A DNA stretch of 64,000 nt from assembly GCA_004369045.1 (NCBI GenBank), contig ML213513.1, positions 722,968 through 786,967 of the forward strand. Reading direction: 5' to 3'. Positions within the stretch are counted from its first letter, which is position 1, and every line of letters begins with the position of its first letter. Both the position numbers and the translations under genes were made by a program. Shown piece after piece: positions 11,501 to 48,032 of this stretch. This DNA is from Heliocybe sulcata. Lineage: Eukaryota; Basidiomycota; Agaricomycetes; Gloeophyllales; Gloeophyllaceae. Under the pieces are notes generated by a model. The model was given only the letters and a program-made list of their open reading frames with translations. It did not search any database and was not told where the DNA came from.

Positions 11501-11757
11501 AATTTGATCACAGGACCTTTCGCGCATGCAGGAAAGCTCTGCTCTCACAAGCTGTTCCTCAATCATTCGATGTAGGTTGGATGTATGGTGCAGATGTCCA
11601 TGCTCGCTGACGCAAGGGTCAAGGGTCCGCGTCCAGGACGCTGTCAAGCTGTACAGTCCATCTCAATCCTTTTAACAATGGCTCGAGGATAACTCTATCG
11701 GGCACATACCGTGACAGAGTCACCCTCCCCGATACACTTTTAGGTTAGAAGAGTATT

Positions 11758-14700
11758 ACGAGTCCTGAGGAACGAAGGAGGAGTCTTTAGCGGCCTTGGG
11801 CCGAACAATGATGACTGTGGGAGTAAGATGCCGAGTGATTGTGGGAATCAAAAGTGTAGTCTTGAATACATCTGTTTCAAAGTCCGCCAGTAGTCGAGAC
11901 TACAATTTTGGATTTGTAGTGCCACATTTCAGTAATCTGTCCAGTGCTCGCCCTCCTGTTGCCATGACTGTCTAAAATTTCAAATATATTATCTAGACCA
12001 TATTACACACCATCTCAAATATTTTGGTGATTTTACGAGGCCTCCTGGGTGCACAGTGGGCGTGTTTGTGGAACAGACACTACAAATTGTCCACTTACTC
12101 ATTGCTTACCGTGGAATTATTCCCGCGGAGTTTCAACTACAAGATTTCCGCGCCGGTTGACATTTGAGGCTTCTGATTGGCTGCTGGCTTGCCATTAGAG
12201 CGCTCCTTAGTATTAACTACAAATTGTTGTAGTCGTGTTATTGAAGATTACACTTGAGGCAACTATGACGCAATCAGACCGTAAAAGTTTGAAACTTTTA
12301 CAGTCCAACTACGTCATAGCCCTGCTCAGCCACAACCTGCCTTCAGTCAGTGCTCTGAGACCGATAAAAATACCGTAAAAATCACTAAAAATCAGAATAT
12401 ATTACTGAGAGCAGAAGCGGTGTTATATGATCTATTAAGAGCACCATATATTGTGCGGTAAATCATAGAATCGCTCCTGTAAGCCCAAATGAAGTCCAAT
12501 AAATGTTCTAAATTGCCCAAAAAATCAGGATGACTGGGAAGTACACAATAACCAATGATTCTAGCTTATGTAAGCCCAAAACTGGTGTGGAGTGGCTTCT
12601 GACAGTCCAGTGATGTAAAAAATTGCTTAAAAATGCGCAAAAGAAACCAGGACAACTGGCAGTAATTAGCTGGGCAGTGAATTCATGATTATGTAAACAT
12701 TGAAAAAATGCAGAACAGGTGTTGTACTAGGATTGCTGGGATAGGCCCTAGTAGACCAAAACTTGCTCAACCCAATTTCAGGCATGTGTCTGTCATTACA
12801 GCACGAAATGCTCATAGAGATAGAATCAATCTGCTTGGTGCACAGCAGTTTGCAAATGATACACAGCAGCAGCTTGTAGACTTTTATTCTGTGGATAAGT
12901 GGAAGGTGCCCACACAACACAATAAGCAGAAAAATAGGAAGAAGTCTAGGCATCTACATGCTTCTGAGAGTATTGAATCAGCTACACAGGAAATTCTTTG
13001 GGGCTTGCCCCCTAATTCCACTCAACATGTTCCTGGGAAATTATCAATCTGCAAAGGTATGCCTGTACTTATCAAAAAGAATGAAGCAACTGAGTGCTGT
13101 ATCACAAATGGTGCTGAGGCTAAAATTGTATCATGGCATAGTCATCAAGAAGACAGAGTTGCTGTTCTCGACACTCTGTTTGTTGAGCTAATTAATCCCC
13201 CACGTAATATACAGCTTGATGGGCTTCCACCAAATGTCGTCCCTCTTACCAGAAATTCTGTGGATATCACATGCAAAATGCCAGATGATACAGAGGAACG
13301 GATTTCCAGACAACAGATCCTAGTATTACCTAACTTTGCAATGACTGATTATGCTTCACAGGGCAGAACTAGGCCTAATAATGTTGTAGACCTGAATAAC
13401 TGTTCAAATCATCAGTCTTACTACACCTGTTTATCTAGAAGTGCATCTGCAGAAGGGACTATTATGATACAAGGTTTTGATCCTAATAAGATCATGGGAG
13501 AAGCATCAGGTTATCTTCGACAAGAGTTCCGAGAGCTTGAAACTTTGGATCATATTACTGAGCTGCATTTTGATAATGCTCTTCCTAGTCATATAGAAGG
13601 ACACCGGAGAAACACTTTGGTTACTGCTTATCAGTTATGGAAGAAAGATGAATGCCCAAAAAAAGTACATACAGCAATAAAGTGGTCCCAGTCAGATCCA
13701 TTCAAACTGGTAGATCCAACTGAAGATGCTATATGGCCATATAAGCATGATAAGCAGACTAATGTAGAGAATGTAAAGAAACCAATAAGGACAGTCTCTC
13801 TAGTAGAACCTCCAAATGTCAAAGCCAAGCAATCAGAACATGCTCTAGAACCAAATGCATATACCAATGACATGGCACCTAGGGGATTCATATGGCATTC
13901 AACTTATAGTTGTGCATATGATGCTTTGCTAACAATAATTTATAATGTTTGGAGAGAAAATCCAGTCAAATGGTCACGAGAACTACAGGTCAATGACTCT
14001 ATGACATTGCTATTAAATGGTTTTGAAGAGATACAGGAAGGTTCCAGGACTATGGAGAGCTGCAGAGATGACTTAAGAAAGGCTCTAAATATAATGGATT
14101 GCCATAGATTTCCACTTAGAAGAGGAGAGGGCACCAGCGTTGCAGAATTATGCAATGAACTATTCAAAGTGCAAGATCTTGGCACAGTGACCTCTGACTG
14201 TCATACCTGTGGCTCAAGCAAAGATGTGCCAATTGAGACTCTGCTCTTTAACTGTTATGCACAAGCAGAGATCCATACAAATGAGACTCCTAGACTGACT
14301 ATCAAGCATTGGCTATCTTCATACCTTGCTCCTTCTGGAGTATACCATGGTGTACGGTGCTGTGGACAGAATGTGCAGACCATAACAGCCTTAAGAAAGA
14401 CCCCATGTTTTTTTGCTTTCAGTATAGCTCACTCTAATCTTGCCCTTACAAGGTCTCTGACACTTACAGTCAATAAGAAAAAGAGGCTTACCCTACGTGG
14501 TATAGTGTACTTTGGTGAATTCCACTTTACATGTAGATTCATTACTAAAAGCAGAGATGTATATTTCAATGATGGTGCACAAACTGGGTGGCAGTGTATC
14601 CTTGAAGGTAATCTGGAGAATATGGATATATATAGTCTACTTACATGTCGGGGAAAATCAGCCTCCCTAGCACTGTATATGCAGTCTCTGTGACAGACTC

Positions 14701-15030
14701 AGTGGTAGAATTTCAATCTCATTTTTTAGATCTTATCCTCAAATGTACATAAACAAGCATGTGCTCTCATGTGTATATGTTCTTCTATGTCTATCAACTT
14801 TTTTGACCTCAGTATCTAGGTATGTGCTCTTATACTTTGGTTCTTCATGTAGATAGCAGATCTGTCTGTGTATATAGATACTATATCAACTACTTGTAAA
14901 CTATTGTGGAACACACTGCCTCTTTACGACTGTACATCATATTTGAGTGAAGTGTGCCTAAATTATCTCAGAAAGTCTCAAGCTCAGGACTCGTATCATG
15001 CCATGCATAGCAGTGGCCCACTTCCACAAG
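11758..15030 (+). mobile_element. Helentron copy A1, internally deleted
   Basis: Rolling-circle DNA transposon. It starts with ACGAGTCCTGAG after TT (11758-11769). The inverted word CTCAGGACTCGT lies at 14983-14994, exactly 36 nt before the end, and is followed by a GTGG...CCAC hairpin and a terminal CAAG next to T. These asymmetric terminal inverted repeats and the T/T target are the hallmarks of Helitron2/Helentron. A leader of about 950 bp is joined directly to the last part of the helicase gene, so the Rep and front helicase parts present in copy B are missing. The leader is about 95% like that of A2 by eye. The junction with coding sequence lies at 12715-12730 beside the word ACTAG, which also occurs at the matching place in copy B, suggesting deletion through microhomology. 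Confidence 0.9.
12708..14693 (+). CDS. Truncated Helentron protein: helicase tail plus cysteine-peptidase-like domain
   Basis: Uninterrupted 661-codon frame with a true ATG that comes from leader sequence. From about residue 8 (RIAGIGPSRPKLAQ) it is colinear with the end of the copy B helicase protein. It keeps the SF1B C-terminal motifs (VSVITARNAHRDRIN; DYASQGRTRPNNVVDL; YTCLSRSASAEG) but lacks Walker A and B, so it cannot be an active helicase by itself. After a linker comes the peptidase-like domain: WHSTYSCAYDALL (Cys about residue 400), a CHTCG...C zinc-like knuckle (about 500), FHFTCRF (His about 606) and YFNDG (Asp about 621). Many differences from copy B are at third codon positions, with no stop in 661 codons, which suggests selection acted on the lineage. 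It could be an untranslated remnant or a trans-acting partner of full elements. Confidence 0.75.
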   Translation: MQNRCCTRIAGIGPSRPKLAQPNFRHVSVITARNAHRDRINLLGAQQFANDTQQQLVDFYSVDKWKVPTQHNKQKNRKKSRHLHASESIESATQEILWGLPPNSTQHVPGKLSICKGMPVLIKKNEATECCITNGAEAKIVSWHSHQEDRVAVLDTLFVELINPPRNIQLDGLPPNVVPLTRNSVDITCKMPDDTEERISRQQILVLPNFAMTDYASQGRTRPNNVVDLNNCSNHQSYYTCLSRSASAEGTIMIQGFDPNKIMGEASGYLRQEFRELETLDHITELHFDNALPSHIEGHRRNTLVTAYQLWKKDECPKKVHTAIKWSQSDPFKLVDPTEDAIWPYKHDKQTNVENVKKPIRTVSLVEPPNVKAKQSEHALEPNAYTNDMAPRGFIWHSTYSCAYDALLTIIYNVWRENPVKWSRELQVNDSMTLLLNGFEEIQEGSRTMESCRDDLRKALNIMDCHRFPLRRGEGTSVAELCNELFKVQDLGTVTSDCHTCGSSKDVPIETLLFNCYAQAEIHTNETPRLTIKHWLSSYLAPSGVYHGVRCCGQNVQTITALRKTPCFFAFSIAHSNLALTRSLTLTVNKKKRLTLRGIVYFGEFHFTCRFITKSRDVYFNDGAQTGWQCILEGNLENMDIYSLLTCRGKSASLALYMQSL

Positions 15031-15550
15031 TAGTCCGATGCAGGGTTGCAAGCATGGTACCGAGTTCCATGCATGAAGCCACGCTTCTTGGAGAACGATC
15101 TGCAAGTTCGGGATCGACTAGTGGGTGTCCGCGTAATGCGATATATTCCAGGAGCGGAGTCAATTACCCGCTTATTCGTATTTGTAGGGGTATATAGCGA
15201 GATTGACCGTGAGATATCCATAAGAGCGGCGGTCTTCGCTATGGGAATGTAATCCACTGGTATGAGAGTGCGAGGAAATTCATGGCTGTTATTTGCAGTC
15301 GTCATTTTGTTGCAATTCCTTGACGGTGTAGGACTGGAGCCCTGCTGGCTGCTCTCTCTTGAGGGACTCGTCAAATATACAGTGCTTGGTCATCAGTTGT
15401 CAACCTGAGCGACGTTCAGTAGGATCTCAGTCGGACACATCAAGCTGTAGAATGTGCAAAGCAGATACAGTATAACATAGTAAAGCTCGCATCTTTAATG
15501 CAGTACGCAGCACCTCCGCAAGAGAGTTGACCATATATGTAGGGTTCATA
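15031..15550. other. Host spacer between two inverted Helentron copies
   Basis: 520 bp of non-transposon sequence between the 3' ends of A1 and A2. A minus-strand frame (15374 down to about 15031) has no recognised motif. The two elements have different flanks, so they arose from separate insertions. Confidence 0.5.
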
Positions 15551-16729
15551 CTTGTGGAAGTGGGCCACTGCTATGCATGGCATGATACGAGTCCTGAGCT
15601 TGAGACTTTCTGAGATTGATATTTAGGCACACTTCACTCATATATGTTGTACAGTGGTAAAGATGCAGTGCATTCCACAGTAGTGTACAAGCAGTTGGTA
15701 TAGTATCTATATGCATGAGGAGCACTGTTCAATTTAACTAATCTTCCAGTTCACTTTTGTGGTCAAAACCTGTTCTGCAATTCTTCAATGCTTACATAAC
15801 TATGAATACACTGCCCAACTAATTACTGCCAGCTGTCTTGATTTTGTTGTGCAATTTTAAGCAATTTTTAACTTCACGGGACTGTCAGAAGCCACTCCAC
15901 ACTGTTTTTGGGCTTATATAAGCTAGAATCATTGGTTGTTGTGTACTTCCCAGTCATCCTGATTTTCTGAGCAATTCAGGACATTTATTGGACTTCCTTT
16001 GGGCTTACATTAGTGATTCTATGATGTACCGCACATTATATGGTGCTATTAATAGATCTTATAACACTGCTTCTGGTCTCAGTAATATATTCTGATTTTT
16101 AGTGATTTCTATGGTATTTTTATCGGTCTCAGAGCACTGACTGAAGGCAGATTGTGGCTGAGCAGGGCTATGACGTAGTTGGACTGTAAAAGTTTCAAAC
16201 TTTTACGGTCTGATTGCATCATAGTTGCTTCAAGCATAATCTTTAATAAAACGACTACAACCATTTGTAGTCAATACTAAGGAGCGCTCTAATGGCAAGC
16301 CAACAGCCAATCAGAAGCCTCAAATGTCAACCGGCGCGGAAGTCTTGTAGTTGAAACTCCGCTGGACTGGTCCCACGGTAAGCAATGAGTAAGTAGACAA
16401 TTTGTAGTGCCTGTTCCAAAGACATGCCCACTGTGCAGCCAGGAGCACTTCTAAAATCACCAAAATATTTGAGATGGTGTCTAATATGGTCTAGATAATA
16501 TATTTGAAATTACAGGTAGTCATGGCAACTGGAGGGTAAGCACTGGACGGATTACTGAAATGTGGCACTACAAATCCAAAATTGTAGTCTCGACTACCAG
16601 TGGACTTCGAAAAAAATGTATTCAAGACTACACTTTTGATTCCCACAATTGCTCGGCATCTTATTCCCACAGTCATCATTGTTCGGCCCAAGGCCGCTAA
16701 AGACTCCTCCTTCGTTCCTCAGGACTCGT
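15551..16729 (-). mobile_element. Helentron copy A2, non-autonomous
   Basis: Reads 5' to 3' on the minus strand. The 5' end ACGAGTCCTGAG is at 16729-16718, and the inverted word at 15598-15587 lies 36 nt from the 3' end (15551), with the same GTGG...CCAC hairpin and terminal CAAG. It is 1179 bp long: about 950 bp of leader homologous to A1 joined to about 220 bp of 3' end, with no coding sequence. The leader breakpoint follows the word GCAGAACAGGT, the same place where A1 lost its interior. Flanks are TT on the 5' side and T on the 3' side. Confidence 0.9.
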
Positions 16730-17111
16730 AACAGGTTGATACTTTCAATAAATTACCAGGGAAATGTCCAAGGGGCGGACAGAAATAAAATAAAAGACCG
16801 GACGTCAGAAATCTCAGTTAAGGGTCTCTAGGCTCCCCCCCCCCCCCCGTGGGAATGTCCCACGGTCTAAAAAGGCAAATGTCGCAAAACATATTTTTCT
16901 CCATAGTGTGATAAATATCCTGTACCTGCCCCGGCACTCTGGACAGTGGTCTATGGCTCTGTTATTACTTGGAAAATAGTTTTAATGAGAAGCAAGTGTT
17001 TTATAAAAGACTATCCAAAGTGGTATATAAGAGAGAGTTAAGCAATATACGTCGCATTAATCGGGCAACGGGTAACGAAGCCGCAAGCTGCTTACGTCCA
17101 TACGGGATAGT
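16730..17111. other. Intergenic spacer
   Basis: Lies between Helentron A2 and the end of the PHD-bearing gene. Apart from the poly-C tract at 16835-16848 nothing is recognised. Confidence 0.4.
16835..16848. repeat. Poly-C tract (14 C)
   Basis: A run of 14 C in the spacer beside Helentron A2. Its length may vary or be miscalled. Confidence 0.7.
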
Positions 17112-20100
17112 TCAGTTTGTCCTCTGCTTCTTTCTTGAGCCAAGAGAAGGGACTCTGATCTTGAGGTTCAAGCGGGCTTTCGACTCACAGGTGTCTGAGC
17201 AGAACCAAGCGCCCGAGGGCTCTTCGAGCAAATCGACACACTCGAAATGAAACTGAGGATATGTCAGCAAAAGAACAGCGAAGATTAGAATTAGCCTGAC
17301 CCATCCGCTACAGTCCGGTCCATCACACTTCACCATGTCGCCTTCCTCGGGACCCCTGCACCAGCAGAACTCGTCTCTGTCTGCATCGTCTCTCTCCGGA
17401 GGTGCAGCATTACGACCCGCGCTAGTTACAGACTCACACTGTTGAGAATATTTGACTTCATAAAGTAAATAGATGAGCCTGGCGCCGCTTGTATGACACA
17501 AGGATCACACTTACCGTTCACCAAAGCCGCGATGTCAGGTTCATTGATCTCTGCATCAGCGGCAGTCCGCTTCCTGTTCCTTAAGTCAGGAACAACGCAC
17601 GACGGTGCTGGCGCTCGAAAATCCTCAGCATCGTCGTGTCCGGTCGTTGATTGCTCAGTAGCAGTGGTGGCCTGGGATGGGGGTCCTGCAATGACAGCTT
17701 GGTCGAGTCCGGCATTCGAAGCGGCGGGTATATCACAGGAGGTCACAGAGGGCGACAGTGGCATGGAACTGCCAAAGAAGTCATCCACAGTAGGATCGGT
17801 CTCCTCCAAACTATGGGTATCGGGAGCCCTGCATAGCCGAAGTAAGCATACTGTAGTGTTTTGATCAATTCGGCACGGCCTGTGACTCGTGACCCATTTG
17901 ACGGATTCGTCAGTTCGTCAGAGCTGTGCATGACCCGTGACAGCCTCCAAATATCCGTCAATATCCGGTTCTAGCAGGGTGTTTCTCTGATAATCTTTAC
18001 CTTCCAGCATGGTGAACTACTAGCTGCACTAGTATGGTACTTCTGCTAGCATCTTTAAAGGCCTCTGCACATGTCGGAAAAAAATTGAATTTTTTACAAA
18101 TATCTTCACCAAAAAACACTTTCGTCAGTCGTCTCTGTGACCCGTGACATGCGTCAATTTTTGGCTCTGTCAGTGCCCTCCGTGACCCGTGACTGCCAAA
18201 TCGATTTAAACACTACAGTAATCACCGAACAATATAGAAAAGATTAATACCTCATCACTACGCGAGAACTGTGAGCTTCGGAAATAGGGAGCGCAACAAC
18301 TCGCTTCGCTTTGGCACGTTGTTTCCTTGGCTTGGTCTTGTACCGCTCTCGCATTGAGTCCCTTTCGGCATCTGAGATTGCGAAGGCCGCACAATGGCAC
18401 TCTTTGTCTACCCTGGGATGAACCGTGTCAAAGTGTGCATCGAAGTTATACTTCCAGATTGCATCCGACGGAGTCGGACAAGCAGGGCACACTGTTGGGA
18501 CATTTGTACATGGTGAAGTCTTCGTGCACTTTCCTGCACTAGTGAGTTGCACCTTGTAGAGGTTCCGACATTGGGAGTGTTGCATGTCAATGATATCCTT
18601 ACCACCGGGACCCTTGCACAGCCGGATTCTGCACAGATTCCCCAAGTTAAGGCACAAGCCGCACGGCGAATCTGCGCGGAGGATTTGGGCATCGAAAAGA
18701 AGGTGAAGTGAAATATGTTCAATGAGCTTGGGTCCTTTATCGATAACGAGCCATGGGCAGAGGTGGCAGCGGTGTTCTTCATTGCAGCTATCCTGTGAAT
18801 CGACATCCACATCGCATAAGAAGCAAGCTTTCTCTAAAGGATCGTGAGGCCAGGAATGGCGAGAAAATGACAAAACACGCACCATCAAAAGAACGGTAAG
18901 GAAATGTCAAAGTCAGGGGTAATTTGGGGAGATCGTCGATCTCCTGCTTCAGCCGTTCATATAAGAGAAGGGAGGCCGCCTTCAGCGACTCTGAATCAAA
19001 AATATATGTCGGTGCACTATCCTGGGTCTTCCGAGTGCTAGGCTTGAGCTCCGGGTTCACAACTTCAACCCAGCACCCCTCAAGCTCCCTCGACAACGAG
19101 ACTCCGGGTAATTGTTCGAATTCACTCGTCCACTCTCATTCTTCCGTGGATGTATTGCGTGCAGCGTCGACCGATTCCAGCTGTGCGCGAGACCGCTGCA
19201 CAAGGCGCATAATCTGCACTCTGACACGGACACTTGGCTCACGCAGATCAGAGCACGGTACGGTCTGTACGGTTTCGTTATTGATACGAATGTCGATGAC
19301 AAGGGCAGCTGCAAGAAATACACGGCCATTACATCGTACAAGAGTGAGGACGGGGCTGTGGATATCGAGAAGAGACAGCCCCTCGTCGTACGAGCACACA
19401 AGGGTCCTGGCTGTAGATTCATTATATGCAGACAAGCCATTGATGCGCCGCAGGCGATCCTTTGAGCTCTGGATACTCATTGGTTTTGAGTACATCTGTA
19501 AGATCCTCGCCTTGTGCTGTCGATTGGCTAGATCCGGGACCCCAGCATCCATCGGAATCCAGGCGCTGTATGTCACGCACATAGTAGTATCGCCCGGCTC
19601 CTGAGGATTCACAACCGTGGGCATTTCAGACGAGACCAAGTCCTCGAGTTCAGGTTCCACATCCTCATCCTGGTCGACTGCCGACTTTTCCGGAGCTCCA
19701 TAGCCAGGCTGTATCTCGGTGGGATCAGTGACAGCGACTGGGCTCCCTTGGAGTGTGATGCCCATCTCGTCTTGCTCTTCAACATCCTCTTCTCGTTCCC
19801 TGGCACATATACCACCGATGAGCATGACTTTATCTTGACCGAACGGGCAGAGTATATCAAAGCCGCCAGATGACTCCATTTTTTCGAACAGAGGCGTGAA
19901 CCGGCACTGCTGAAGTGCTTTTACCGCCTTGTGCTTCCCGAGTTGCCATGACGTGAGTAGGACAACACGATTCAAGGATACATCACCCTTCCACGAGGAG
20001 GGATTTATATGATCGTACTTACGAGCCACTACCCCGTCACCTGAGCATAAAGTCGGTAACTTCAGGCGGCGAGGACCCTGATCCCATTCCGGATGCAACT

Positions 20101-20432
20101 GAAGTAGCGAAGAGCAGAGGGAGGCGGTTGTTAGTCTAGACGATAACTGTAGCTGATCTGTGTTGGTATCATTCCCGACCATAGTCCGTACAATGCCGAA
20201 TAGTGTTTCCAGAGAGTCTGTTCCCAGAAGGATCAGGTAGAACTTGCCATTCGGGTTTGCTGACATTGCTTTCGCGACACAGAAGTACGCATTCTTGATC
20301 ATGGTCATCACATCGTAGTACAATTGAACTGGAACGAAGCCACCCTTGTTCTCGGCGTAGAGCGCCAGACAGAGATGAGCGGCCGCCGAAAGAGACTCCA
20401 GCTGTCCACTCAGATCAAGTTGAACATCAGTT
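17112..20432 (-). pseudogene. Repetitive transposase-like gene with zinc-binding and PHD regions, 3' part
   Basis: Large minus-strand gene cut by Helentron B at 20432/20433. Exons: 20432-18883, 18833-18251, 17828 to about 17510, then two PHD exons (about 17445-17301 and 17252-17112). The first exon reads AAAHLCLALYAENKGG...LYYDVMTMIKNAYFC and DSLETLFGIVRTMVGND, resembling the region around the last acidic residue in RNase H-fold transposases (hAT/P/KDZ type); this is inference. Then come VEVVNPELKP, a Cys/His-rich region (CHLCPW, CGLCLNLGNLC, CPACPT) and a PHD finger (CWC...CDGPDCSGW|FHFEC...WFCSDTC) split by a 48-bp intron. It matches a multicopy mushroom gene family as I remember it. An in-frame TGA near 19136 and an unclear splice phase near 17450 suggest it is dead even apart from the insertion. 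Confidence 0.6.
17851..18218. mobile_element. TA-flanked MITE inside an intron
   Basis: About 368 bp with terminal inverted repeats: the left end CTGTAGTGTTTTGATCAATT matches the inverted right end CTGTAGTGTTTAAATCGATT with few mismatches. Both sides are flanked by TA (17849-17850 and 18219-18220), the target duplication of the Tc1/mariner superfamily. It contains no coding sequence. Several copies of GTGACCCGTGAC-like words lie just inside both ends and could be transposase-binding repeats. It sits in a 422-bp intron (17829-18250) of the transposase-like/PHD gene, whose other introns are about 50 bp, so the extra length is explained by this insertion. Confidence 0.75.
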
Positions 20433-21697
20433 ACGAGTCCTGAGTTTACGGAGGAGGAGTCTTTAGCGACATGGAGCCGAATGATGATGATCGTGAGAAG
20501 AGTATGCCGAGAAGTGGTGGGAATCTAAAGTGTAGTCGAGACTACAAAATATTGATACTCCGCTTGTAGTTGAGACTACAATTCTGGATTTGTAGTGCCA
20601 CATTTCATTAATGCGCCCAGTGCTCACCTTCCGCTTGCTGTATCAATCCCATATTTCAAATATAATATTTTCATTACATTCCCTACCTCTCCAAATATTT
20701 TCGTGATTTTACGGTTGAATCTGAGCCTGCAGTGAGCATCACAACAAACTGGAGACTACAAATCACTTACTTACCTGTTGCTTATCGTGAGAGAGAATTG
20801 TCGGAGTTTCAGCCACAGGATTTCCGCGCCGGTTGGGAATCCTGGCTTCTGATTGGCTGGTGGCTTGTAATGGAGCGCTACTTACTATTGACAACAAAGT
20901 TTTGTAGTCGGACTATGATAGATTCTGCTTAAGGCAACTATGACGCACATGCAGCTCGAGAATTGCAACTATTGCACCTGCAAGTGCATCATAGCCCTGC
21001 TCTGACATAATCAGCATGATGTAAACTTGTGCTGCCTTCAAATGAAGCGATAAAATATGGGAAAATCACGAAAAATCACGAAATATTACAGGAGACAGGG
21101 GCAGTGCTATAATAGCTATTAATAGCACTTTGCCGCTCACGGGGTCCTGTATAAAAGCTTTCAGCTGTTGAAATCAGGTCAAAAAATTGCCAAAAATGTG
21201 CCAAAAATCAGGATAAGCAGTGGTACTTAGCTGCTCAGCATTTTATGCTTATGTAATCATCTAGCTAGTTCTGGGTGGCATTCAGCAGCCTCAAATAAGT
21301 GTAAAAATGCCCCAAAAAATTGGAATAATCAAGAGCAATCAGCCACCTGTATATCTATGCTTACATAAGCACATGAAAAATGCGGAATAGCCTCTTATAG
21401 CAGAAATAAACTAAAAACATCGTGCAAAAATGCGCAAAAAATCAAGATAACCAAGGACACTCAGGTAACCAAGTATTGATGCTTATATAAGCACAAAAAC
21501 CAGTAGAAATAAAGTGATAAATGTGCTGAAGTGAACAGTGCTGTGCATTTGGCCGGCATCTTCCAGTAGTCCTAATATAGAAGGTGCAACTGTATAGCTG
21601 CAAGTCCATATTCTCACGCAACTTCCTCTACTGTTTGAGTCACATTTTTTCAGTGTTAACACCACTAACTCTGACTTCTGAGACGGTGCTACCACAC

Positions 21698-24600
21698 ATG
21701 CAGAACTGTCTCAACACCTCTTGGATCTCTATGCTCCTGGCCCTTATTGGGCATACTGCAATGCTTCAAATCTTGAAGTACTGTATCTCAGGCTTTGCCT
21801 GGCTCCATCATATGGAGTATGTCTCAGGCTCTGCCTGGCTTCTTATGAAGTACTGTGTTACAGGCATGTCCTGGCTCCTAATTATGGAGTATCACTTTAC
21901 TTGCCCTATTATGGTGCAATACTATACCCAGCTCCTGATTATGGAGTATCACTATACTTGGCCCATGATGGAGCATTGTACTACAGCCATGTCCTGGCTC
22001 TCTATTACAGAGTATTATATGCATGTGATCCAGCAGGCCCTTTTGCAAGGTATTGAAGCCACTTCCTTATGTCATATAGAAACCCTCTTATTAGGGACTA
22101 TAATCTTTGCTTTGGTTTTGATAGTATTTATCATTTGGATGGTATTTACGAAGAAATGTTTTTCACTTCCTCAGTATAAATATTTTGGTTTTGCTCTTAT
22201 TTGGATATGCCTGGGATTAACTGGGGTTAACTCTGTTTCAGTTTCCACCAATCAGCCAAAATTACTTGGACCTCTAGCAGAGTTTGATGCTGTGAATAAT
22301 AGCTCCAATATATCAGCTTCAATGTCTTTATCTTATCCCTTCCCCGCTCCATGTCTTCCTTCAGAAAATATAGATATATATTGCACTTCTGATGCTGCTG
22401 CTTCTCATTCCATTTCTTATATATTAGAATATGACTCTGCTGAAAATAAACAATATCCATTATATCTAAGCTTTTCCATGATCCAATCAATCCACAAGAA
22501 TATCGTCATGCTTTTCTTACAATTTCAATCAGGAAATAGGGCTATCATTGCTGCTACTCTTGTTAGTCTCTCAATTGTCAGGAATACCATACGGCATCAT
22601 GATTATATTGCCATGGTACGCAAATATCTCAAATTATTTCATAACAAACTCCTCCACTGTCAGTTGAATCAATTCTTCTACTATTTGATGCAGGGAAATG
22701 CTTCTTTGTATCCACAGGTTAAGAGTCAATGTGGGACAGCCAATATCGCTAAGTTTACCAGTAGTGATCCAAGTGCATATGACATACCCAGGATAAATCA
22801 AATTGGAGGGGCAGTACGGCGTACCAGAGCCATATTCACCAAAGAAGATATCCTCAAAAATCCATATGTAATTCCAGATAGCTCTCAGTCTTTGTCTATT
22901 TTGAATAGCCCTCATGTCCACTTCAAGTTCTTGGATTATTGCTTGTGGGATGAAGCTGTGTATATGTACAAAAGTGAAGATAGTGTAATCTTTAGCAAGA
23001 CACCACACTCCCATTTAGCAATGAATTTACCTAAAGTCAGGTTACAGGTGCTGGCTGAGCTGCATGGATTAACCATTCCGGAAAAATGCTCAGTTGCTGA
23101 ATTCAGAGATACTATTATGAGACATGAGTGCAAGAATTGTCCAGAGTATCATACTGTATTATTAGCTTATATTCCTGGTTCCAAAACAGCCTACTTCCAA
23201 GAAATCATAGCAAAAAGACGGAACAACGATCACAGGAATTGGTCTTTGAAGGGTGACAACCAGAAAATGATGTATATAGCCTCAAGTGATAGTACTGAAG
23301 ATATTAAATTTCCACCTAAGTCTACATCCAAAGAATTGTTACAGAAAATTATCTATGATTTTGTTGATGCTCAAAAACCTACATTAATAGAAGAGTCTGG
23401 CTGTACTGTATGTGGAGTTCTTTGTCCTCTATCGATAATGGGTGATATTGGAAATTACCAGAATCAAATGCATCTTTTAACTATTCCTGACAAGCTTGTT
23501 ACCCGGAAGGAAAGATTTACATCAGCAGATCCCATTGAAACTATCCCTGGACCTATCCTAGCACATAATAAAAAGCATATATGTCCTGAGTGTGTTATTT
23601 CTCTGGAGAAAGGCCAAGCTCCAGACCAAGCATTAGCTAATGGTTTATGGTTGGGTAATATACCTAATGAGCTACAAGACCTTACACTAGCTGAAAAGTT
23701 TATGGTAGCAAAGGTGCGACACAATCGATGTGTGGTTAGAGTGGCTTCTGGAGGTTCCAAGATGAGAGCAAATGCTGTAATGTTTGCCAATCCCACGCCA
23801 AAGATTTATAACAGTTTACCTCCTCCTCGGAGCGAGATGGATGAAGTTTTGGCATTTATATATACTGGACCAGTACAGCCCACAGAGGAAGATTTCAAGC
23901 GTACCCCTTTATTAGTTAGTCATAAAAGAGTGAGCAAAGCACTTGAGTGGTTGAAGTTAAATCATAGTGATTATGAAGACCTTAATATCTCATATGATAA
24001 TCTAAGAGAATATCAAGATAATAGTCCACCGGTAGTAGTAGGTTATCACCCTCAGCATGGAGCCAAAGAAGACCTTGGAAAGAGTCTCCATCATAATGAT
24101 GATGAAGGTACTGAGTCAGGTTCTTGTCCCTTGACAGTGCATGGAGTAACAGGAAGTCAGCTTAGTACCAAGAGTATAAAAGCTCTGAAGGCCATGGCCA
24201 TGAGACACCTGACATCTGGTGGGAAGGTCCTTGCTGTAGGCCATGCAGAAAATCCAGAATCTATCTACAATAATCCTGGACTATATCCACAGATGTTTCC
24301 TTGGTTGTTCCCATATGGTCTTGGTGGCTTAAGCAATGATAATGGATATAAGAGTGTTCCAGAGATCACGCACAAGCGTCAGTTATTGATGTATTTTGAT
24401 AAAAGATTTCAGATGGACCAATACTTCCCAATTATTGCTTTCAATCAAGAGCAGATCAAGTCAAGTACATCTGGTGGATTTCTCTTAGCAGAGCGAAGAT
24501 CTTTTGATGATATCACAGACCGCCTCCTATCAATAGATAAATCCACTTTATCTGATCTTTCACAAAGATTATCCAAAGGTGAAAGGGTTCAACCGAATAC

Positions 24601-25375
24601 TGATGAAGAGAAAGCTTGCTTCCAATTACTCAATGACTTGGATTTGATTGGCAATCATGTTGATGGTTCTGTAACAAACAAAAAGTATATGCGAAATGAA
24701 ATATGGTCTCTCATTGCATACAAGGGTGCTCCATCTTGGTTCATTACTTTTGCACCTGCTGATGTGCAGCACCCTATATGCTTATATTATGCTAATACCG
24801 GGGAAACATTCAAGTCTCATATATTGCCTAAAGATGAGAGAGCAAAGCTGATAGCAAACAATCCTGTTGCTGGGGCAAGATTCTTTGACATGATGGTGAA
24901 GTTATTTATCAAACATGTACTGGGAGTGAACTCTGACCATGATGGACTATATGGAAAAACAGCTGCATACTACGGTACGGTTGAGCAACAAGGAAGGCTT
25001 ACACTACATCTGCATCTGCTACTATGGATTACCAACTCACTAAGTCCTCAGGAGATACGTGATAGAATACTGGATTCTCGGTCAGAATTTCGGAAAAAAA
25101 TGATTGATTATCTTGAAAGTGTACATCAAGGAGAATTCATTGGTAAAACAATGACTGAGTACAAAATGATACTCTTTATGCATCATCAGATCCAGACTAT
25201 AAGGATCCGACTCAAACTCTACCAGAAGCTCCGCCCTATCCTTGCAATCACCAGTCTGATGAAAAATGTGAAAATTGTAAAAAGAGTGATAATTGGTGGG
25301 AATTATTCAAGGATACCACAAATGACTTGCTCTATAGATCTAACATACATAGTTGCGGGGATCACTGTATGGTGA
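21698..25375 (+). CDS. Helentron Rep protein, N-terminal and HUH part
   Basis: First ATG in a frame open to 25375. Residues 1-115 are short imperfect repeats around MEY/SWLLIMEYH, followed by two hydrophobic spans (about residues 125-150 and 162-178) that look membrane-like. A Cys-bearing region (CTVCGVLCP) leads to a DUF6570-like block (LTLAEKFMVAKVRHNRCVV; VLAFIYTGPVQPTEEDFKR). The Helitron-like N domain follows (RFQMDQYFPIIAFNQEQIK; EKACFQLLNDLD; YMRNEIWSLIAYKGAPSWF). The HUH motif is TLHLHLLLWI at about nt 25010. Homology leaves this frame after MTE at nt 25159 and continues in the next frame (VQNDTLYASSDPDYKDP), which fits loss of one base there. The codons after 25159 in this frame are therefore probably not native. 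The catalytic tyrosines lie in the next entry. Confidence 0.8.
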   Translation: MQNCLNTSWISMLLALIGHTAMLQILKYCISGFAWLHHMEYVSGSAWLLMKYCVTGMSWLLIMEYHFTCPIMVQYYTQLLIMEYHYTWPMMEHCTTAMSWLSITEYYMHVIQQALLQGIEATSLCHIETLLLGTIIFALVLIVFIIWMVFTKKCFSLPQYKYFGFALIWICLGLTGVNSVSVSTNQPKLLGPLAEFDAVNNSSNISASMSLSYPFPAPCLPSENIDIYCTSDAAASHSISYILEYDSAENKQYPLYLSFSMIQSIHKNIVMLFLQFQSGNRAIIAATLVSLSIVRNTIRHHDYIAMVRKYLKLFHNKLLHCQLNQFFYYLMQGNASLYPQVKSQCGTANIAKFTSSDPSAYDIPRINQIGGAVRRTRAIFTKEDILKNPYVIPDSSQSLSILNSPHVHFKFLDYCLWDEAVYMYKSEDSVIFSKTPHSHLAMNLPKVRLQVLAELHGLTIPEKCSVAEFRDTIMRHECKNCPEYHTVLLAYIPGSKTAYFQEIIAKRRNNDHRNWSLKGDNQKMMYIASSDSTEDIKFPPKSTSKELLQKIIYDFVDAQKPTLIEESGCTVCGVLCPLSIMGDIGNYQNQMHLLTIPDKLVTRKERFTSADPIETIPGPILAHNKKHICPECVISLEKGQAPDQALANGLWLGNIPNELQDLTLAEKFMVAKVRHNRCVVRVASGGSKMRANAVMFANPTPKIYNSLPPPRSEMDEVLAFIYTGPVQPTEEDFKRTPLLVSHKRVSKALEWLKLNHSDYEDLNISYDNLREYQDNSPPVVVGYHPQHGAKEDLGKSLHHNDDEGTESGSCPLTVHGVTGSQLSTKSIKALKAMAMRHLTSGGKVLAVGHAENPESIYNNPGLYPQMFPWLFPYGLGGLSNDNGYKSVPEITHKRQLLMYFDKRFQMDQYFPIIAFNQEQIKSSTSGGFLLAERRSFDDITDRLLSIDKSTLSDLSQRLSKGERVQPNTDEEKACFQLLNDLDLIGNHVDGSVTNKKYMRNEIWSLIAYKGAPSWFITFAPADVQHPICLYYANTGETFKSHILPKDERAKLIANNPVAGARFFDMMVKLFIKHVLGVNSDHDGLYGKTAAYYGTVEQQGRLTLHLHLLLWITNSLSPQEIRDRILDSRSEFRKKMIDYLESVHQGEFIGKTMTEYKMILFMHHQIQTIRIRLKLYQKLRPILAITSLMKNVKIVKRVIIGGNYSRIPQMTCSIDLTYIVAGITVW

Positions 25376-28300
25376 AAGGTGAATGCAAAGCTAGATTTCC
25401 AAGACCTTATGTAGAAACTACAACAGTTGATGAAAAAGATGGATATATCACTTTGAAGAAGTTGGAAAGAAGGCTAAATACGTTCACACCAGCACTCACC
25501 TATCTGTTAAGATCAAACTCTGATGTGACCAGTTTACTCTCAGGAACAGCATTGAAGTCCATGGTGGCATATGTTACTGACTACATTACTAAGACACCAT
25601 TAAAAACTTACACTATCTTCCAGACTATCCGTGATGTTTTTGATCGGCAAACAACAATGATTGGAGGTACTCTTAGAGATCAAGAGAAAGCACGAAAATT
25701 ACTCACTCAGATAGTGAACTCTCTCTCTGTGAAAATGGAAATTGGAGCGCCCATGGCTGCAGCTTACTTACTGGGAAATCCTGATCATTACACTAGTCAT
25801 CATTTCTGCACTGTATATTGGAAGTCATATGTCAATGAGGTACTGAAAATTTGGGATAATCCAGATCTGAATCAGCTTGCAGTGAATGATAAACCTAATC
25901 CTAAGGATCAAGTAGTTGTGAAGAGATCTGCTGAAGGGTATACAGCATATACTCCTATTATGGATTATATATATCGTCCAAAGCAATTTGAACATGTATG
26001 CCTGTATGACTGGGTACGCTTGTCACATAAGAGAATATTAACCAATATCAAGTCTAAGTCCAGCTCATCTACAGAAGTGACAGCAGTAGACCTTGAACCA
26101 CAGAAAGATACTATGGATGGAGAAAAAATAGACCATCAAGAGTTGACATTTCTACCAGGCCATCCTCAGCATGGTAGTCATTATGTGACTTTGACACAGG
26201 AATCATCAGCTCTAGTTCCAAATTTCATTGGTGGTTCTCTGCCACGCCGTGATACTGGCAATAGGGAATTTTACTGTGTTACAATGCTTACCCTATTCAA
26301 ACCATGGAAAACTGGATTAGACCTCAAATCTGAAGATGACTCTTGGGATGATACCTTCTCATGCTATCATTTTACATCCAGACAAAAGGAGCTGCTATCT
26401 TTCTTCAATACCAAATATGAATGTTATGATGCCCGAGATGATTATTCCCGACAACGCAAAGCAGGAATCTCAGGCATCCCTACTCTACATAACAAGGAGC
26501 TTTTGCAACATTTAGGAATTGATGGTGATCAAGAGGATGAATTAGACTATGCAGAATATGCACAACATCCTGAGGCATCTCAATATGATAAGCTTGGAAA
26601 TCAGACACTGAAACATCTCAGAGAAATGAATGAAATGGAAAGTATTCTCAAAGGTGCTGGATGGCTCGGTGGTACTCTCCCACTAAGTGTTGCTCGGGAA
26701 TTTACTGACTCTCAGATCCCTTATAAAAACAGACAGCAGTGGATAGATTTAATACAATCTAAGCGAGCTAATATATTGGAGCAGAGGGAAAGTGACCATA
26801 ATATAGCTATAAGTACCCAACCTAGCCAAATGGCACTGCGATGGAGTGAAGTTAAAGTTGTTGATCAGTCTTACTTGATGAAAGATTACAAGACAGCATA
26901 TTCAGATTGTCTGGACTTACAACAGCAGATTATCAACCAATTTTTCCTTCGGCCAGAGCAAGAAAGAGCCTTTAGAATTGTTGCCAATCATGCTTCTCAA
27001 CCTCAGAGTGAACAGCTAAAAATGTACTTGGGTGGAATGGCAGGCACAGGAAAATCACAAGTCATAAAGGCACTCATGGAATTCTTCAAAATATGCAAGG
27101 AATCTCATAAGTTCCTGGTTTTAGCTCCTACCGGTTCAGCCGCTGCAATAGTTGGGGGTTCAACTTACCATTCAGCACTGGGAGTCAGTGATAAATTTGA
27201 TCATATCAATAACAGCTCTTCTAATAAAGCACAAATTCAAGCAAGACTTGAGGGTGTTGAGTATATTTTTATTGATGAGCTATCCATGATATCTTGTCAT
27301 GACTTATATAAAATATGCTCACAATTATGTAAGGCAACTGGAAATACAGATGATCCATTTGGTGGAGTAAACATGATCTTATGTGGAGACTTTGCACAAC
27401 TGCCTCCTGCAATGAACCATGCAGCCCTTTACAACTCTAATGTAGGCACTAATATCTCTCCAAGAATGTCGGTTCAATCACAGGAGACTGCTTTGGGAAA
27501 GGCATTATGGCATCAATTTACCACAGTAGTTATACTACGGGAAAACATGCGACAGAGGACACAGTCTCCAGAGGATGCTCAACTAAGGGTGGCATTAGAA
27601 AATATGAGGTATAAATCATGTACTGAACAGGACATTGCATTCTTGCGCACTAGAATTGCTGGGATAGGTCCTAATAGGCCAAAACTTGCACAACCAAAGT
27701 TCAGGCATGTATCAGTCATTACAGCGCGGAATGCTCACAGAGACAGAATTAATTTACTTGGTGCACAGCAGTTCGCAAATGACACAGAACAGCAGCTCAT
27801 AGACTTTTATTCTGTGGATAAATGGAAGGTACCCACACATCACAATAAGCAGAAACATAGGAGGAAGTCTAGACATATACACGCCTCAGAAATCATTGAA
27901 TCAGCTATGCAAGATATCATTTGGGGTTTACCCCCTAATTCTACTCAACATGTTCCTGGGAAATTATCAATCTGCAAAGGTATGCCTGTACTTATCAAAA
28001 AGAATGAGGCAACTGAATGCTGCATCACAAATGGTGCTGAGGCTAAAATTGTGTCATGGCATAGTCATCAAGAAGACAGTGTGGCTGTTCTCGATACTTT
28101 ATTTGTTGAGCTCATTAATCCCCCACGCAATATTCAACTTGATGGGCTTCCCCTAAATGTTGTCCCTCTTACAAAAACTTCCATAGATATCACATGCAAA
28201 ATGCCAGATGATACAGAGGAGCGGATCACCAGACAACAGATCCCAGTATTACCCAACTTTGCAATGACTGATTATGCTTCTCAGGGTAGAACCAGGCCCA

Positions 28301-29673
28301 ATAATGTTGTAGATCTGCATAACTGTTCAAACCACCAATCTTACTACACTTGTTTATCCAGAAGTGCATCAGCAGAAGGTACCATTATGATCCAAGGTTT
28401 TGATCCTAATAAAATCATGGGAGGAGCATCAGGTTATCTTCGACAAGAATTCCGAGAGCTTGAAGTTCTGGATCATATTACTGAGCTGCGTTTTAATAGT
28501 GTTCTGCCTAGTCACATTGAAGGACACCGAAGGAACACCTTGGTCCACGCATATCAATTATGGAAGAAGAATGAATGTCCAAAAAACGTACATCCTGCAA
28601 TAAAGTGGTCCCAGTCAGATCCATTCAAGCTAGTAGATGCTTCTGAAGATGCTATGTGGCCATATAAGCATAACAAGCAGAACAGCATAGAGAATGGAGA
28701 GGATCCAGTAAAGAGAGTCTCTCTAGTAGAAAATCCAAATATCAAATCTAAGCAATCAGCACATGCTCCACAATCCAGTGCACATACCAATGGCATCGTG
28801 CCCAAGGGATTCATATGGCATTCAACTTATAGTTGTGCATACGATGCTTTGCTAACAATAATTTATAATGTTTGGAGAGAAAATCCAGTCAAATGGTCAC
28901 GAGAACTACATTTCAATGACTGTATGAGATTGCTCTTAAATGGTTTTGAAGAGATAGAGGAAGGTTCAAGGGCTATGGAAAGCTGCAGAGATGACTTAAG
29001 AAAGACTCTAAATGAAATGGATCACTATAGATTTCCACTTAGAAGAGGAGAGGGCACCAGTGTCAGTGAATTATGTAGTGAATTATTCAAAGCACAAGAT
29101 CTTGGTACTGTGACCTCTGATTGTCATACCTGTGGTTCAAGCAAAGATGCACCAATCGAGACTCTTCTCCTTAATTGTTATGCCCAAGCAGAGATCAATG
29201 TAGATGAGACTCCTAGACTGACTATCAAGCATTGGCTATCTTCATATCTTGCTCCTTCTGGATTATACCATGGTGTCCGGTGCTGTGGCCAGAATGTCCA
29301 GACCATAACAGCTTTAAGGAAGACCCCACGGTTGCTTGCCTTCAATATAGCACACTCCAGTCTTGCCCTTACAAGGTCTCTGACACTTACAGTCAACAAG
29401 AAAAGGAGGCTTACACTACGTGGTATTGTATATTTTGGGGAGTTCCACTTCACATGTAGATTCATTACTAAAAACAAAGATGTATATTTCAATGATGGTG
29501 CACAAACTGGGTGGCAATGTATCCTTGAAGGTAATCTGGATGATATGGATATATATAGTCTACTGACATGTCGGGGAAAATCAGCCTCTAGCACTGTATA
29601 TGCAGTCCCTGTGAGAGAGTTAGTGGCAGAATTTCAATTTTATATGTTGGATTGTATCTTTAAACTTGCATAA
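25159..29673 (+). CDS. Helentron Rep tyrosine region, Pif1-type helicase and cysteine-peptidase-like domain
   Basis: Frame open from 25159 to the stop at 29673. It completes Rep with a CxxC-type segment (CENCKKSD, HSCGDHCM) and the tyrosine motif MVAYVTDYITK at about nt 25561. The Pif1-family SF1B helicase follows: Walker A GGMAGTGKS (about nt 27030), Walker B IFIDELS (about 27265), CGDFAQLPP (about 27380), and C-terminal motifs ending in DYASQGRTRP and YTCLSRSASAEG (about 28265-28380). The last about 330 residues are a separate module with YSCAYDALL (28825), CHTCG (about 29125), FHFTCRF (29445) and YFNDG (29485), in the Cys-His-Asp order of ubiquitin-specific proteases. Rep is expected to nick and join single strands during rolling-circle transposition and the helicase to unwind; the peptidase role is unknown. 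Confidence 0.85.
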   Translation, partial: VQNDTLYASSDPDYKDPTQTLPEAPPYPCNHQSDEKCENCKKSDNWWELFKDTTNDLLYRSNIHSCGDHCMVKGECKARFPRPYVETTTVDEKDGYITLKKLERRLNTFTPALTYLLRSNSDVTSLLSGTALKSMVAYVTDYITKTPLKTYTIFQTIRDVFDRQTTMIGGTLRDQEKARKLLTQIVNSLSVKMEIGAPMAAAYLLGNPDHYTSHHFCTVYWKSYVNEVLKIWDNPDLNQLAVNDKPNPKDQVVVKRSAEGYTAYTPIMDYIYRPKQFEHVCLYDWVRLSHKRILTNIKSKSSSSTEVTAVDLEPQKDTMDGEKIDHQELTFLPGHPQHGSHYVTLTQESSALVPNFIGGSLPRRDTGNREFYCVTMLTLFKPWKTGLDLKSEDDSWDDTFSCYHFTSRQKELLSFFNTKYECYDARDDYSRQRKAGISGIPTLHNKELLQHLGIDGDQEDELDYAEYAQHPEASQYDKLGNQTLKHLREMNEMESILKGAGWLGGTLPLSVAREFTDSQIPYKNRQQWIDLIQSKRANILEQRESDHNIAISTQPSQMALRWSEVKVVDQSYLMKDYKTAYSDCLDLQQQIINQFFLRPEQERAFRIVANHASQPQSEQLKMYLGGMAGTGKSQVIKALMEFFKICKESHKFLVLAPTGSAAAIVGGSTYHSALGVSDKFDHINNSSSNKAQIQARLEGVEYIFIDELSMISCHDLYKICSQLCKATGNTDDPFGGVNMILCGDFAQLPPAMNHAALYNSNVGTNISPRMSVQSQETALGKALWHQFTTVVILRENMRQRTQSPEDAQLRVALENMRYKSCTEQDIAFLRTRIAGIGPNRPKLAQPKFRHVSVITARNAHRDRINLLGAQQFANDTEQQLIDFYSVDKWKVPTHHNKQKHRRKSRHIHASEIIESAMQDIIWGLPPNSTQHVPGKLSICKGMPVLIKKNEATECCITNGAEAKIVSWHSHQEDSVAVLDTLFVELINPPRNIQLDGLPLNVVPLTKTSIDITCKMPDDTEERITRQQIPVLPNFAMTDYASQGRTRPNNVVDLHNCSNHQSYYTCLSRSASAEGTIMIQGFDPNKIMGGASGYLRQEFRELEVLDHITELRFNSVLPSHIEGHRRNTLVHAYQLWKKNECPKNVHPAIKWSQSDPFKLVDASEDAMWPYKHNKQNSIENGEDPVKRVSLVENPNIKSKQSAHAPQSSAHTNGIVPKGFIWHSTYSCAYDALLTIIYNVWRENPVKWSRELHFNDCMRLLLNGFEEIEEGSRAMESCRDDLRKTLNEMDHYRFPLRRGEGTSVSELCSELFKAQDLGTVTSDCHTCGSSKDAPIETLLLNCYAQAEINVDETPRLTIKHWLSSYLAPSGLYHGVRCCGQNVQTITALRKTPRLLAFNIAHSSLALTRSLTLTVNKKRRLTLRGIVYFGEFHFTCRFITKNKDVYFNDGAQTGWQCILEGNLDDMDIYSLLTCRGKSASSTVYAVPVRELVAEFQFYMLDCIFKLA

Positions 29674-29970
29674 ACAAGCATGTGCACCCACATGCCTATG
29701 TTCTTCTATGTCTGTTTTTGCTTCTCAACTTATTCTTCCCCTTTACTATGTAGGTATGTGTGGTTGTTATTTAGTTCTTCTTGTAGATAGCACCTCTGTC
29801 ACTATATATAGATAATGTAGTAACTACTTGTACATTATTGTACATGCAATGAATGCATTGACTTTGCTGTTGTCCTCTATATTTGAGTGAAATGTGTCTA
29901 AATTAGCTCAGAATATCTCAATCTCAGGACTCGTACCATGCCATGCATAGCAGTGGCCCACTTCCACAAG

Positions 29971-30352
29971 TCAATGGATATCGAGTATACCGCCAGAATC
30001 TACCAGTAGAGCACAGAGACGTCGCCGCTTCTATCACCGTTCGACAATCGGTACGCCCCGTGTTCTAACCATCACGAGGATACACGAAAATGGGACATCC
30101 TAAAGGAGGACAATCGGAGTCTCGGTGAGAAAGCGACACCATATCGGCGGTGGCTGTAGAGCAAGAGTCGTTTTCCTGAAACGGGAAAGGAAATTGCATA
30201 AACTGGTCCGATATCTCAGAATTACTTTCGGTAATCTGAAATTGAGTATAGCCTGGAGAGCAATCAACCGTGCCCACTGTGACACGCGTTCCTGTGAGTG
30301 TTGCCAACAAGCCTCGATTTTCGCCCAGATTCGTACGAAAATGATGCATCAC
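29971..30352 (-). pseudogene. 5' fragment of the gene split by Helentron B
   Basis: Exon 29999-29971 begins after a CTACTGGTAG acceptor and reads ILAVYSISIETD, continuing without a break into DVQLDLSGQLESL on the far side of copy B at 20432. Further upstream, 30352-30065 holds an open minus-strand stretch (SNSEISDQFMQFPFPFQEND) that may be an earlier exon, though no clean donor joins it. The rest of the 5' end is not recognised before the tandem array starts at about 30.4 kb. Confidence 0.45.
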
Positions 30353-47330: not shown

Positions 47331-47475
47331 TTCCTCGTCATTGAGTGGCATATGGGCATAGCAATGACATTTCATATAGGCATAACGACGTGGCGCGTAG
47401 ACGGCATATGACAGAAGACAAGGAGAAAAGAGAAAAGCATAAATCGATCCACCCATTTCCTCCCCAACCTTTCCA

Positions 47476-48032
47476 TCAGGCTTTGGTAGCCTCCGCCGCC
47501 GCCCCGCTCTCGGAGCTCTTGGCCTCGGACACAGTTGTATTGTTCGCAAGGTTTGCGGGCTTGATGACTGTTTCCAGGGCCTTGGGCAGCCGAGGGAGAC
47601 ATAGTTCTTCGTCGTCGCCCTCGTCGTCGTCGTCGAAGGCCGACTCGAAATCTTGGACACAGGCATCGAAGTCAACTCCGAGCTGACCCGCCTTAAACTA
47701 ACAAGGCATAAGCAGTGTTTATCATATGAGTGAGGACGGTACTCACATATTCAGGGATTTCAGTCTTCAGGCCATTGACGAAACTCGGGACCCTGAGCAC
47801 CTTAACAGGCGTCATCTGGAGTGCCGAGGGGTGCAGCTGAAGGGGGAGGAACGCTCGCATCAGTGTTCTCGTCAATACATCGAGAGGAACTTGCCATGTA
47901 CGCCGGCCTCCGCTTGCTCGGGGAGGACTTGGTAGGAGCTGCAGGGCGCTTCGGAGCGCCCGGAGCAGTTCTTCCGAGATTGGTGGCAGGCTTGGCAGGA
48001 GCACGACCAGGTGGCACGGTGTCCGACGACAT
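47476..48032 (-). CDS. Orphan acidic-tail protein G, copy 1
   Basis: ATG at 48032 (MSSDTVPPGRAPAKPATNL) opens a Pro/Ala/Lys-rich N-terminus. The final exon 47697-47476 encodes GVDFDACVQDFESAFDDDD, then LCLPRLPKALETVIKPAN and ends EATKA. A 49-bp GT-AG intron (47698-47746) precedes it after FVNGLKTEIPEY. The N-terminal frame and the FVNGLK frame differ, so one more intron is needed, most likely from GTACATGG to a CAG just before VPSFVNGLK; the exact acceptor is unsure. Roughly 130-150 aa. There is no known domain. Final-exon conservation across three copies supports a real protein. Confidence 0.5.

Follow-up and report, generated by a model that had tools for sequence, protein, structure and literature searches.

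What is the large region that follows the helicase of a rolling-circle transposon in Heliocybe sulcata, and could it be a protease that acts on ubiquitin or its relatives? The window, that is, the whole stretch analyzed, comprises 64,000 nt of contig ML213513.1 (GCA_004369045.1; forward strand, positions 722,968 to 786,967), from a genome of 31.6 Mb. It holds a Helitron2-type transposon, here called element A, for which the initial annotation, made from the letters alone, had described a cysteine-peptidase-like domain resembling ubiquitin-specific proteases (USPs) at the end of the helicase. That observation is confirmed. The transposase tail is probably, with a confidence that we put at roughly 0.62, a USP-like deubiquitinase (DUB) or an isopeptidase of ubiquitin-like modifiers (UbLs), corresponding to the OTU and VTD modules that animal Helentrons carry. 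The genome contains 40 matches to PF04082 (Fungal_trans), in keeping with the description of the element as fungal. Papers are cited by their PMC identifiers and, except where the main text of one was covered, from excerpts. The parts of the element on which the argument rests are as follows; the coordinates of single residues were converted from the alignment described below.

20430-29971, plus strand: element A, Helitron2-type, carrier of the domain, about 9.5 kb; a copy on contig C23 is 98.0-98.6% identical.
21581-25375, plus strand: open reading frame (ORF) with DUF6570 and Helitron_like_N (Rep); Pfam E values, 2.6e-39 and 3.2e-33.
25159-29673, plus strand: ORF with a PIF1-like helicase (amino acids 597-806; Pfam E value, 1.9e-23) and the C-terminal domain.
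28801-29589, plus strand: probable USP-like cysteine-peptidase domain (13 substantial copies, invariant residues, USP profile match).
28834-28836, plus strand: presumed nucleophile Cys (in YSCAYD), in 11/11 covering rows.
29122-29133, plus strand: CxxC, first zinc-like pair, in 12/12 covering rows.
29281-29286, plus strand: CC, second zinc-like pair, in 13/13 rows.
29446-29451, plus strand: presumed catalytic His (29446-29448) and aromatic gatekeeper Phe, each in 13/13 rows.
29491-29496, plus strand: Asn-Asp pair, presumed to hold the third catalytic residue, each in 13/13 rows.

A tblastn search of the genome with the domain returned 22 matches, 13 of them substantial (the window copy included) and 9 short (19-39 residues). 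The 13 substantial copies, 11 of full length and 2 partial (L013 and L021), make up alignment A1, in which the full-length rows are 40-97% identical to the window copy and the two fragments 85% and 37%. The short matches were left out: L022 and L026 match the out-of-frame tail of the window ORF and adjoin L010 and L012, and the remainder fall in a stretch within query residues 199-239.

Downstream of the PIF1 helicase, the motifs YSCAYDALL, CHTCG, FHFTCRF, and YFNDG follow one another in the ORF at 25159-29673 in the order first described, and the recurrence of their key residues in the genome copies is more than chance would produce. The domain begins at 28801, as annotated, but its conserved stretch stops at about 29589 rather than 29673, for a length of about 270 residues. 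The last 27 codons of the ORF have no in-frame match in the other copies, the frames of which end in, e.g., LALYMQSL or LAIYAQ followed by a stop. Conservation of the Cys, His, and Asp across copies was a check set beforehand, and all three are present in every row that covers them. The Cys box (GFIWxSxYSCAYD) is kept across the domain family. The zinc-like insert placed between Cys and His by the annotation is represented by the CxxC, but its second half, the CC pair 49 residues away, had gone unnoticed.

The order of the residues is Cys-His-Asn-Asp, with distances from His of 15 to the Asn and 16 to the Asp, within the spacing of about 15-18 expected of USPs; of the invariant pair, it may be the Asn and not the Asp that serves as the third catalytic residue. 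The residue two positions before the His is Glu in 10 rows, Asp in 2, and Gly in 1, and since one copy has Gly, this position is probably not catalytic. Directly after the His there is a Phe in all 13 rows. A conserved aromatic residue at this position marks DUBs and UbL proteases specific for Gly-Gly, among which it is 477-fold enriched (PMC7391069). In the same work, prediction relied on distant similarity combined with the aromatic motif and met one false positive, an acetyltransferase; in the present domain the aromatic is found without exception and the distant similarity is weak.

The domain is under purifying selection. The ratio of nonsynonymous to synonymous substitution rates (dN/dS) could be estimated for 7 of 13 pairs. 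It was 0.38 for the closest pair, which has few changes, while the other six gave 0.05-0.24, two of them with a dS of >1.4; dS was saturated in the six further pairs. At 9 of 10 Rep loci (11 Rep matches, two pieces on contig C6 being merged), the domain lies 3.8-4.3 kb downstream on the same strand, and the tenth has a Rep just 33% identical to that of A. No Rep match lies close to four of the 13 domain copies: element B, from which Rep is deleted, the copy on C44, at the contig end, and those at C5:303179 and C1:2280429. Among seven elements, Rep distances and domain distances are in agreement (Mantel r, 0.93, a value attained in 4 of 5040 permutations). Because of this agreement and the position of the domain downstream of Rep, the domain is inherited together with the transposase and was not repeatedly captured. 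It also diverges much faster than Rep around fixed active-site-like residues: element A and its C23 copy are 77-81% identical to the other five elements in Rep and only 42-48% identical in the domain.

The genome also contains a second Helitron lineage (L005, C1:1715277-1715918), with a Rep 33% identical to that of A and no domain copy found nearby.

In element A, Rep lies in the ORF at 21581-25375 and the helicase and domain lie in a different frame. The paralogue L055 has DUF6570, Rep, PIF1, and the C-terminal domain in a single open frame of 2438 codons, counted from stop to stop. Since all parts occupy one frame there, the window copy represents a disrupted version related to one fused protein. 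Within both proteins the helicase and the domain are joined in frame.

For comparison with known proteases, A1 was aligned by HHalign to a USP alignment built from the USP exons of the host itself and the USP pieces printed in PDB entries. The score was 28.2 (P = 0.0038), which no column shuffle and no block shuffle attained among 300 of each kind; an earlier version of the USP set gave 27.95, likewise unmatched in 600 shuffles. Without guidance, HHalign placed the second Cys of the CC on the second zinc pair (second CxxC) of USPs, the Leu-x-x-x-Pro stretch L-x-K-x-P-R-I-I-A-F on S-L-S-R-L-P-P-V-L (L-x-x-L-P), the strand LRGIIYFG on Y-x-L-x-G-V, and the Asn-Asp on the USP pair of Asn or Asp followed by Asp. 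Statistically, then, it is the C-terminal half of the domain that resembles USPs. With 60 shuffles per profile, the z score was 4.7 for USP, 0.4 for UCH, -0.2 for Pif1, and -0.5 for OTU, the last from a small set of four sequences. In a lower-scoring alignment to a USP set confined to the C-terminal half, His-Phe falls on His-Tyr and Asn-Asp on Asn-Asp. A UCH-L assignment was rejected on its background-level profile and the lack of a Pfam match, and an OTU assignment was rejected on the same two grounds.

Several results weigh against assignment to the USPs. The C-terminal-half alignment does bring the His into register, but shuffles attained its score in 5 of 300 cases in one series and 1 of 300 in another. 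The HHalign probability for USP is 8-9% (8.7% in the best alignment), which is under the usual thresholds, and the best alignment displaces the His by two columns, with the Gly-Glu-Phe of the query on the Gly-His-Tyr of USPs. The Cys box by itself gave no in-register alignment to USP Cys boxes (its score of 10.4 was equaled or exceeded in 21 of 200 shuffles), and the Asn residues that precede the Cys in the host's USPs are absent from the domain. The second zinc pair is CC and not CxxC. Reversed controls, at 18-21, exceed the shuffle mean, with a score of 21.0 for reversed A1 and a z of 2.1 for reversed USP. UCH, UCH_1, C98, and OTU have no Pfam match in the 13 members to an E value of 10, the scan returning 8 unrelated families alone (best E value, 0.0066), and none of the 24 genome matches to PF00443 lies at a domain copy. 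No USP appeared in PDB sequence searches to an E value of 10: query P0001 had no match, A1 had one spurious ribosomal match (E value, 0.29), and the His/Asp half had none. AlphaFold models of the two window copies were unusable, with a predicted local distance difference test score (pLDDT) of 33 for both. In each, a helix starts 3-4 residues before the Cys and the C-terminal half is rich in strands, features compatible with a papain-like order that carry no weight at that pLDDT. A Foldseek search with the first model gave 516 matches to an E value of 10, none with an E value of <0.001, and among the best 50 of the 516 there was no USP or other cysteine peptidase. The profile comparison with its null controls, the invariant residues, and the aromatic after the His support the description as a USP-like peptidase without proving it, and they do so unevenly, given the register of the His and the Cys box.

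The Glu two positions before the His recalls the D-x-H of VTDs; HHalign places this same Glu on the USP His. Searches of viral contig and genome contig collections with the domain found no relatives, nor did a search of viral contigs with the whole L055 protein. A search with the helicase alignment gave 33 helicase-level matches at 22-33% identity.

The same residues could be accommodated by other kinds of protein. Within the USP superfamily, the domain might be directed at SUMO or another UbL, like USPL1 (C98), instead of being a deubiquitinase, which we consider unlikely. Its W-x5-C-x2-D spacing resembles that of USPL1. USPL1 is described as related to USPs and as cleaving SUMO, with the aromatic motif preserved (PMC7391069) and the Fingers retained (PMC10719079); the Peptidase_C98 profile, however, has no match in the 13 members to an E value of 10. 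We likewise consider it unlikely that the domain is a papain-like cysteine protease outside the UbL proteases, one that cuts, for example, the transposase polyprotein. Self-cleavage would suit the variable linker before the domain (22% identity over a 60-column block ending at L055 residue 2154), and Helentron proteases have been proposed to cleave the Rep, helicase, and endonuclease protein (PMC4067079), but an invariant Phe after the His is rare outside DUBs and UbL proteases (PMC7391069), and paired zinc-like Cys residues are expected of USPs.

It is also doubtful, and quite improbable in our estimate, that the tail is a zinc-binding module for DNA or protein interaction that lacks protease activity and looks like a triad only to the eye. 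The weak HHalign probability, the out-of-register His, the unaligned Cys box, and the failed folds all agree with such a module, which nevertheless would have no need for a strict Cys, His-aromatic, and Asn-Asp at an overall identity as low as 40%. The USP profile also scores above all 600 shuffles. Membership of the OTU or VTD family known from animal Helentrons is very improbable. Those modules occupy the same position and play the same part in rolling-circle elements (PMC9741609, PMC4067079), and 12 of 13 rows have a Glu or Asp two residues ahead of the His, superficially like the VTD D-x-H. The OTU profile is nevertheless at background (with the four-sequence set) with no Pfam match, and VTDs, compared here by their motif description, have a D-x-H motif and no aromatic gatekeeper (PMC9741609), whereas this domain has Glu-x-His in 10 copies, Asp-x-His in 2, and Gly-x-His in 1, with the Phe after the His and the Asn-Asp invariant.

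The tail would most probably give the transposase its own enzyme for stripping ubiquitin or another modifier that ends in Gly-Gly. The target may be the transposase itself or host proteins at the donor or target site, and the outcome would be either a transposase shielded from degradation or an edited host repair response. The in-frame fusion, the conserved residues, the purifying selection, the codivergence with Rep, and the partial resemblance to USPs are results of the analysis; the fold, activity, substrate, and role in transposition are inferred. The suggestion in the annotation that such a module counteracts ubiquitin-based control by the host is likewise an extrapolation, with precedent in animal Helentrons: zebrafish Helitron VTDs have been shown to cleave ubiquitin chains, and the VTDs of animal Helitrons have been proposed to block proteasomal degradation of proteins required for transposition (PMC9741609). 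Other transposases have OTU and Ulp1 domains that have been suggested to act in DNA repair (PMC2836005).

The closest parallels are those animal Helentrons, whose rolling-circle proteins have a VTD and/or OTU cysteine-protease module (PMC9741609, PMC4067079) as the H. sulcata protein appears to have; they differ in that their peptidase is OTU or VTD and not USP-like and in that they carry an apurinic/apyrimidinic (AP) endonuclease, which was not found here. Helitrons with a VTD have been reported in animals, and the VTDs that exist in Agaricomycetes are not described as Helitron parts in the excerpts of PMC9741609. With the USP family (MEROPS C19, Pfam UCH), the domain shares the order Cys, CxxC, second Cys pair, His-aromatic, and Asn or Asp followed by Asp, as well as a Leu-Pro-like stretch between the zinc pair and the His and a final Tyr-containing stretch. 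It departs from them in having no hidden Markov model match, CC where USPs have their second CxxC, a Cys box without the USP Asn (G-x-x-N-x-G-N-T-C), and a length of about 270 residues. A Trichomonas vaginalis transposase with Peptidase C19 is on record (cited in PMC2836005) and is similar in its fused USP-type peptidase, but it belongs to a Transposase_11 element of a protist and not to a Helitron. Ginger1 and Mutator transposases also carry a UbL-protease domain, at the C terminus in Ginger1; these are cut-and-paste elements, and their domains are of the OTU or Ulp1 type (PMC2836005).

In fungi, RepHel was found to have no cysteine protease in a survey of Pleurotus Helitrons (PMC4289320), and the words "protease," "peptidase," and "ubiquitin" are absent from the main text of a paper on Fusarium Helitrons (PMC5148889). 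A USP-like domain in a fungal Helitron was not found in the open-access literature searched. What would be new here is thus the putative USP-like tail on a fungal Helitron, UbL-protease domains in transposases (OTU, VTD, Ulp1, and C19) being already known. More tentatively, and with rather less than even confidence, the domain could be an unrecognized branch of the USP superfamily, seen so far only in Helitron2 transposases of one fungus: a deubiquitinase acquired separately from OTU and VTD and kept by selection, the rest of its sequence having diverged over twice as far as Rep, as if tracking a host target. The survey of Pleurotus also reports a Helitron-captured gene with a herpesvirus large tegument protein UL36 domain (PHA03247), the protein family of the VTD deubiquitinase (PMC4289320).

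Unrelated transposons repeatedly carry OTU, VTD, Ulp1, or C19 modules (PMC9741609, PMC2836005), a hint that eukaryotic DNA often needs ubiquitin or SUMO to be controlled in order to move. If true, a module of USP-like type in a fungal Helitron would be another independent case, and it would account for an extensive C-terminal part of such proteins, which the Pfam release searched leaves uncovered. It would also make testable the question of whether Helitron mobility depends on an isopeptidase of the element's own.

The class of the element was judged from its proteins and its ends. Pfam finds Rep (PF14214) together with PIF1 (PF05970), the combination that characterizes the Helitron superfamily, in the window ORFs and in the L055 frame. 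The initial annotation had called the element a Helentron. We rejected that label since the AP endonuclease that is the hallmark of Helentrons was not found: no endonuclease family appeared when the two window ORFs and the 2438-codon L055 frame were scanned with Pfam. By its ends, which are listed below, the element appears to be Helitron2-like.

20430-20444, plus strand: 5' terminus of A, GTTACGAGTCCTGAG, a start common to copies A, B, C, and C23.
20433-20444, plus strand: 5' arm of the asymmetric inverted repeat, the last 12 bases of GTTACGAGTCCTGAG.
29923-29934, minus strand: 3' subterminal arm of A, CTCAGGACTCGT, 37 bases from the 3' end.
29960-29971, plus strand: 3' terminus of A, ACTTCCACAAG(T), from four aligned 3' ends with differing flanks.

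Element A thus has the asymmetric terminal inverted repeats by which Helitron2 is recognized, with ACGAGTCCTGAG at its 5' end and the complement 37 bases inside its 3' end; both arms are also present in B and C. The 12-mer arm occurs 7 times in the window against an expectation of 0.01. The flanks of A and of the C23 copy differ at both ends. At the four 3' ends, a T directly follows CACAAG, and the alignment is compatible with this terminal T belonging either to the element or to the flank. No clear terminal hairpin, as expected of Helitron2 along with a T-rich insertion site, was seen at the element ends. FoHeli, a Helitron2 of Fusarium oxysporum, is like A in having Rep and a Pif1 helicase with no endonuclease, AP endonuclease having been found in no fungal Helitron according to the excerpts of that paper, and in the approximate length and position of its asymmetric terminal inverted repeat (12 bp, with the 3' arm some tens of bases in). 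It differs in that no peptidase is reported for it and that FoHeli1/2 have terminal hairpins, which are not clearly seen in A (PMC5148889).

Two relatives of A lie upstream of it in the window.

11756-15032, plus strand: element B, related to A but missing a large internal part; the domain is retained at 13878-14687.
15549-16732, minus strand: element C, a nonautonomous relative of about 1.2 kb with ends as in A; no domain copy was found in it.

Element B has a 670-codon ORF (12681-14693) made up of the C-terminal part of the helicase and the whole peptidase-like domain, for which a Pfam scan to an E value of 0.01 gave no match. Element C lies about 0.5 kb from B in the opposite orientation. 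A lone 35-base copy of the element 5' terminus, 97% identical, is found at 59270-59304, and the rest of the element was not seen adjacent to it. Adjoining the 5' end of A, at 18244-20524 on the minus strand, are two ORFs of 220 and 462 codons, the smaller of them rich in Cys; a Pfam scan of both to an E value of 0.01 gave no match. Elsewhere in the window, a 1.6-kb repeat is present in three direct copies (47372-48956, 51274-52869, and 55511-57130) that are 82-84% identical and have minus-strand ORFs of 223-237 codons.

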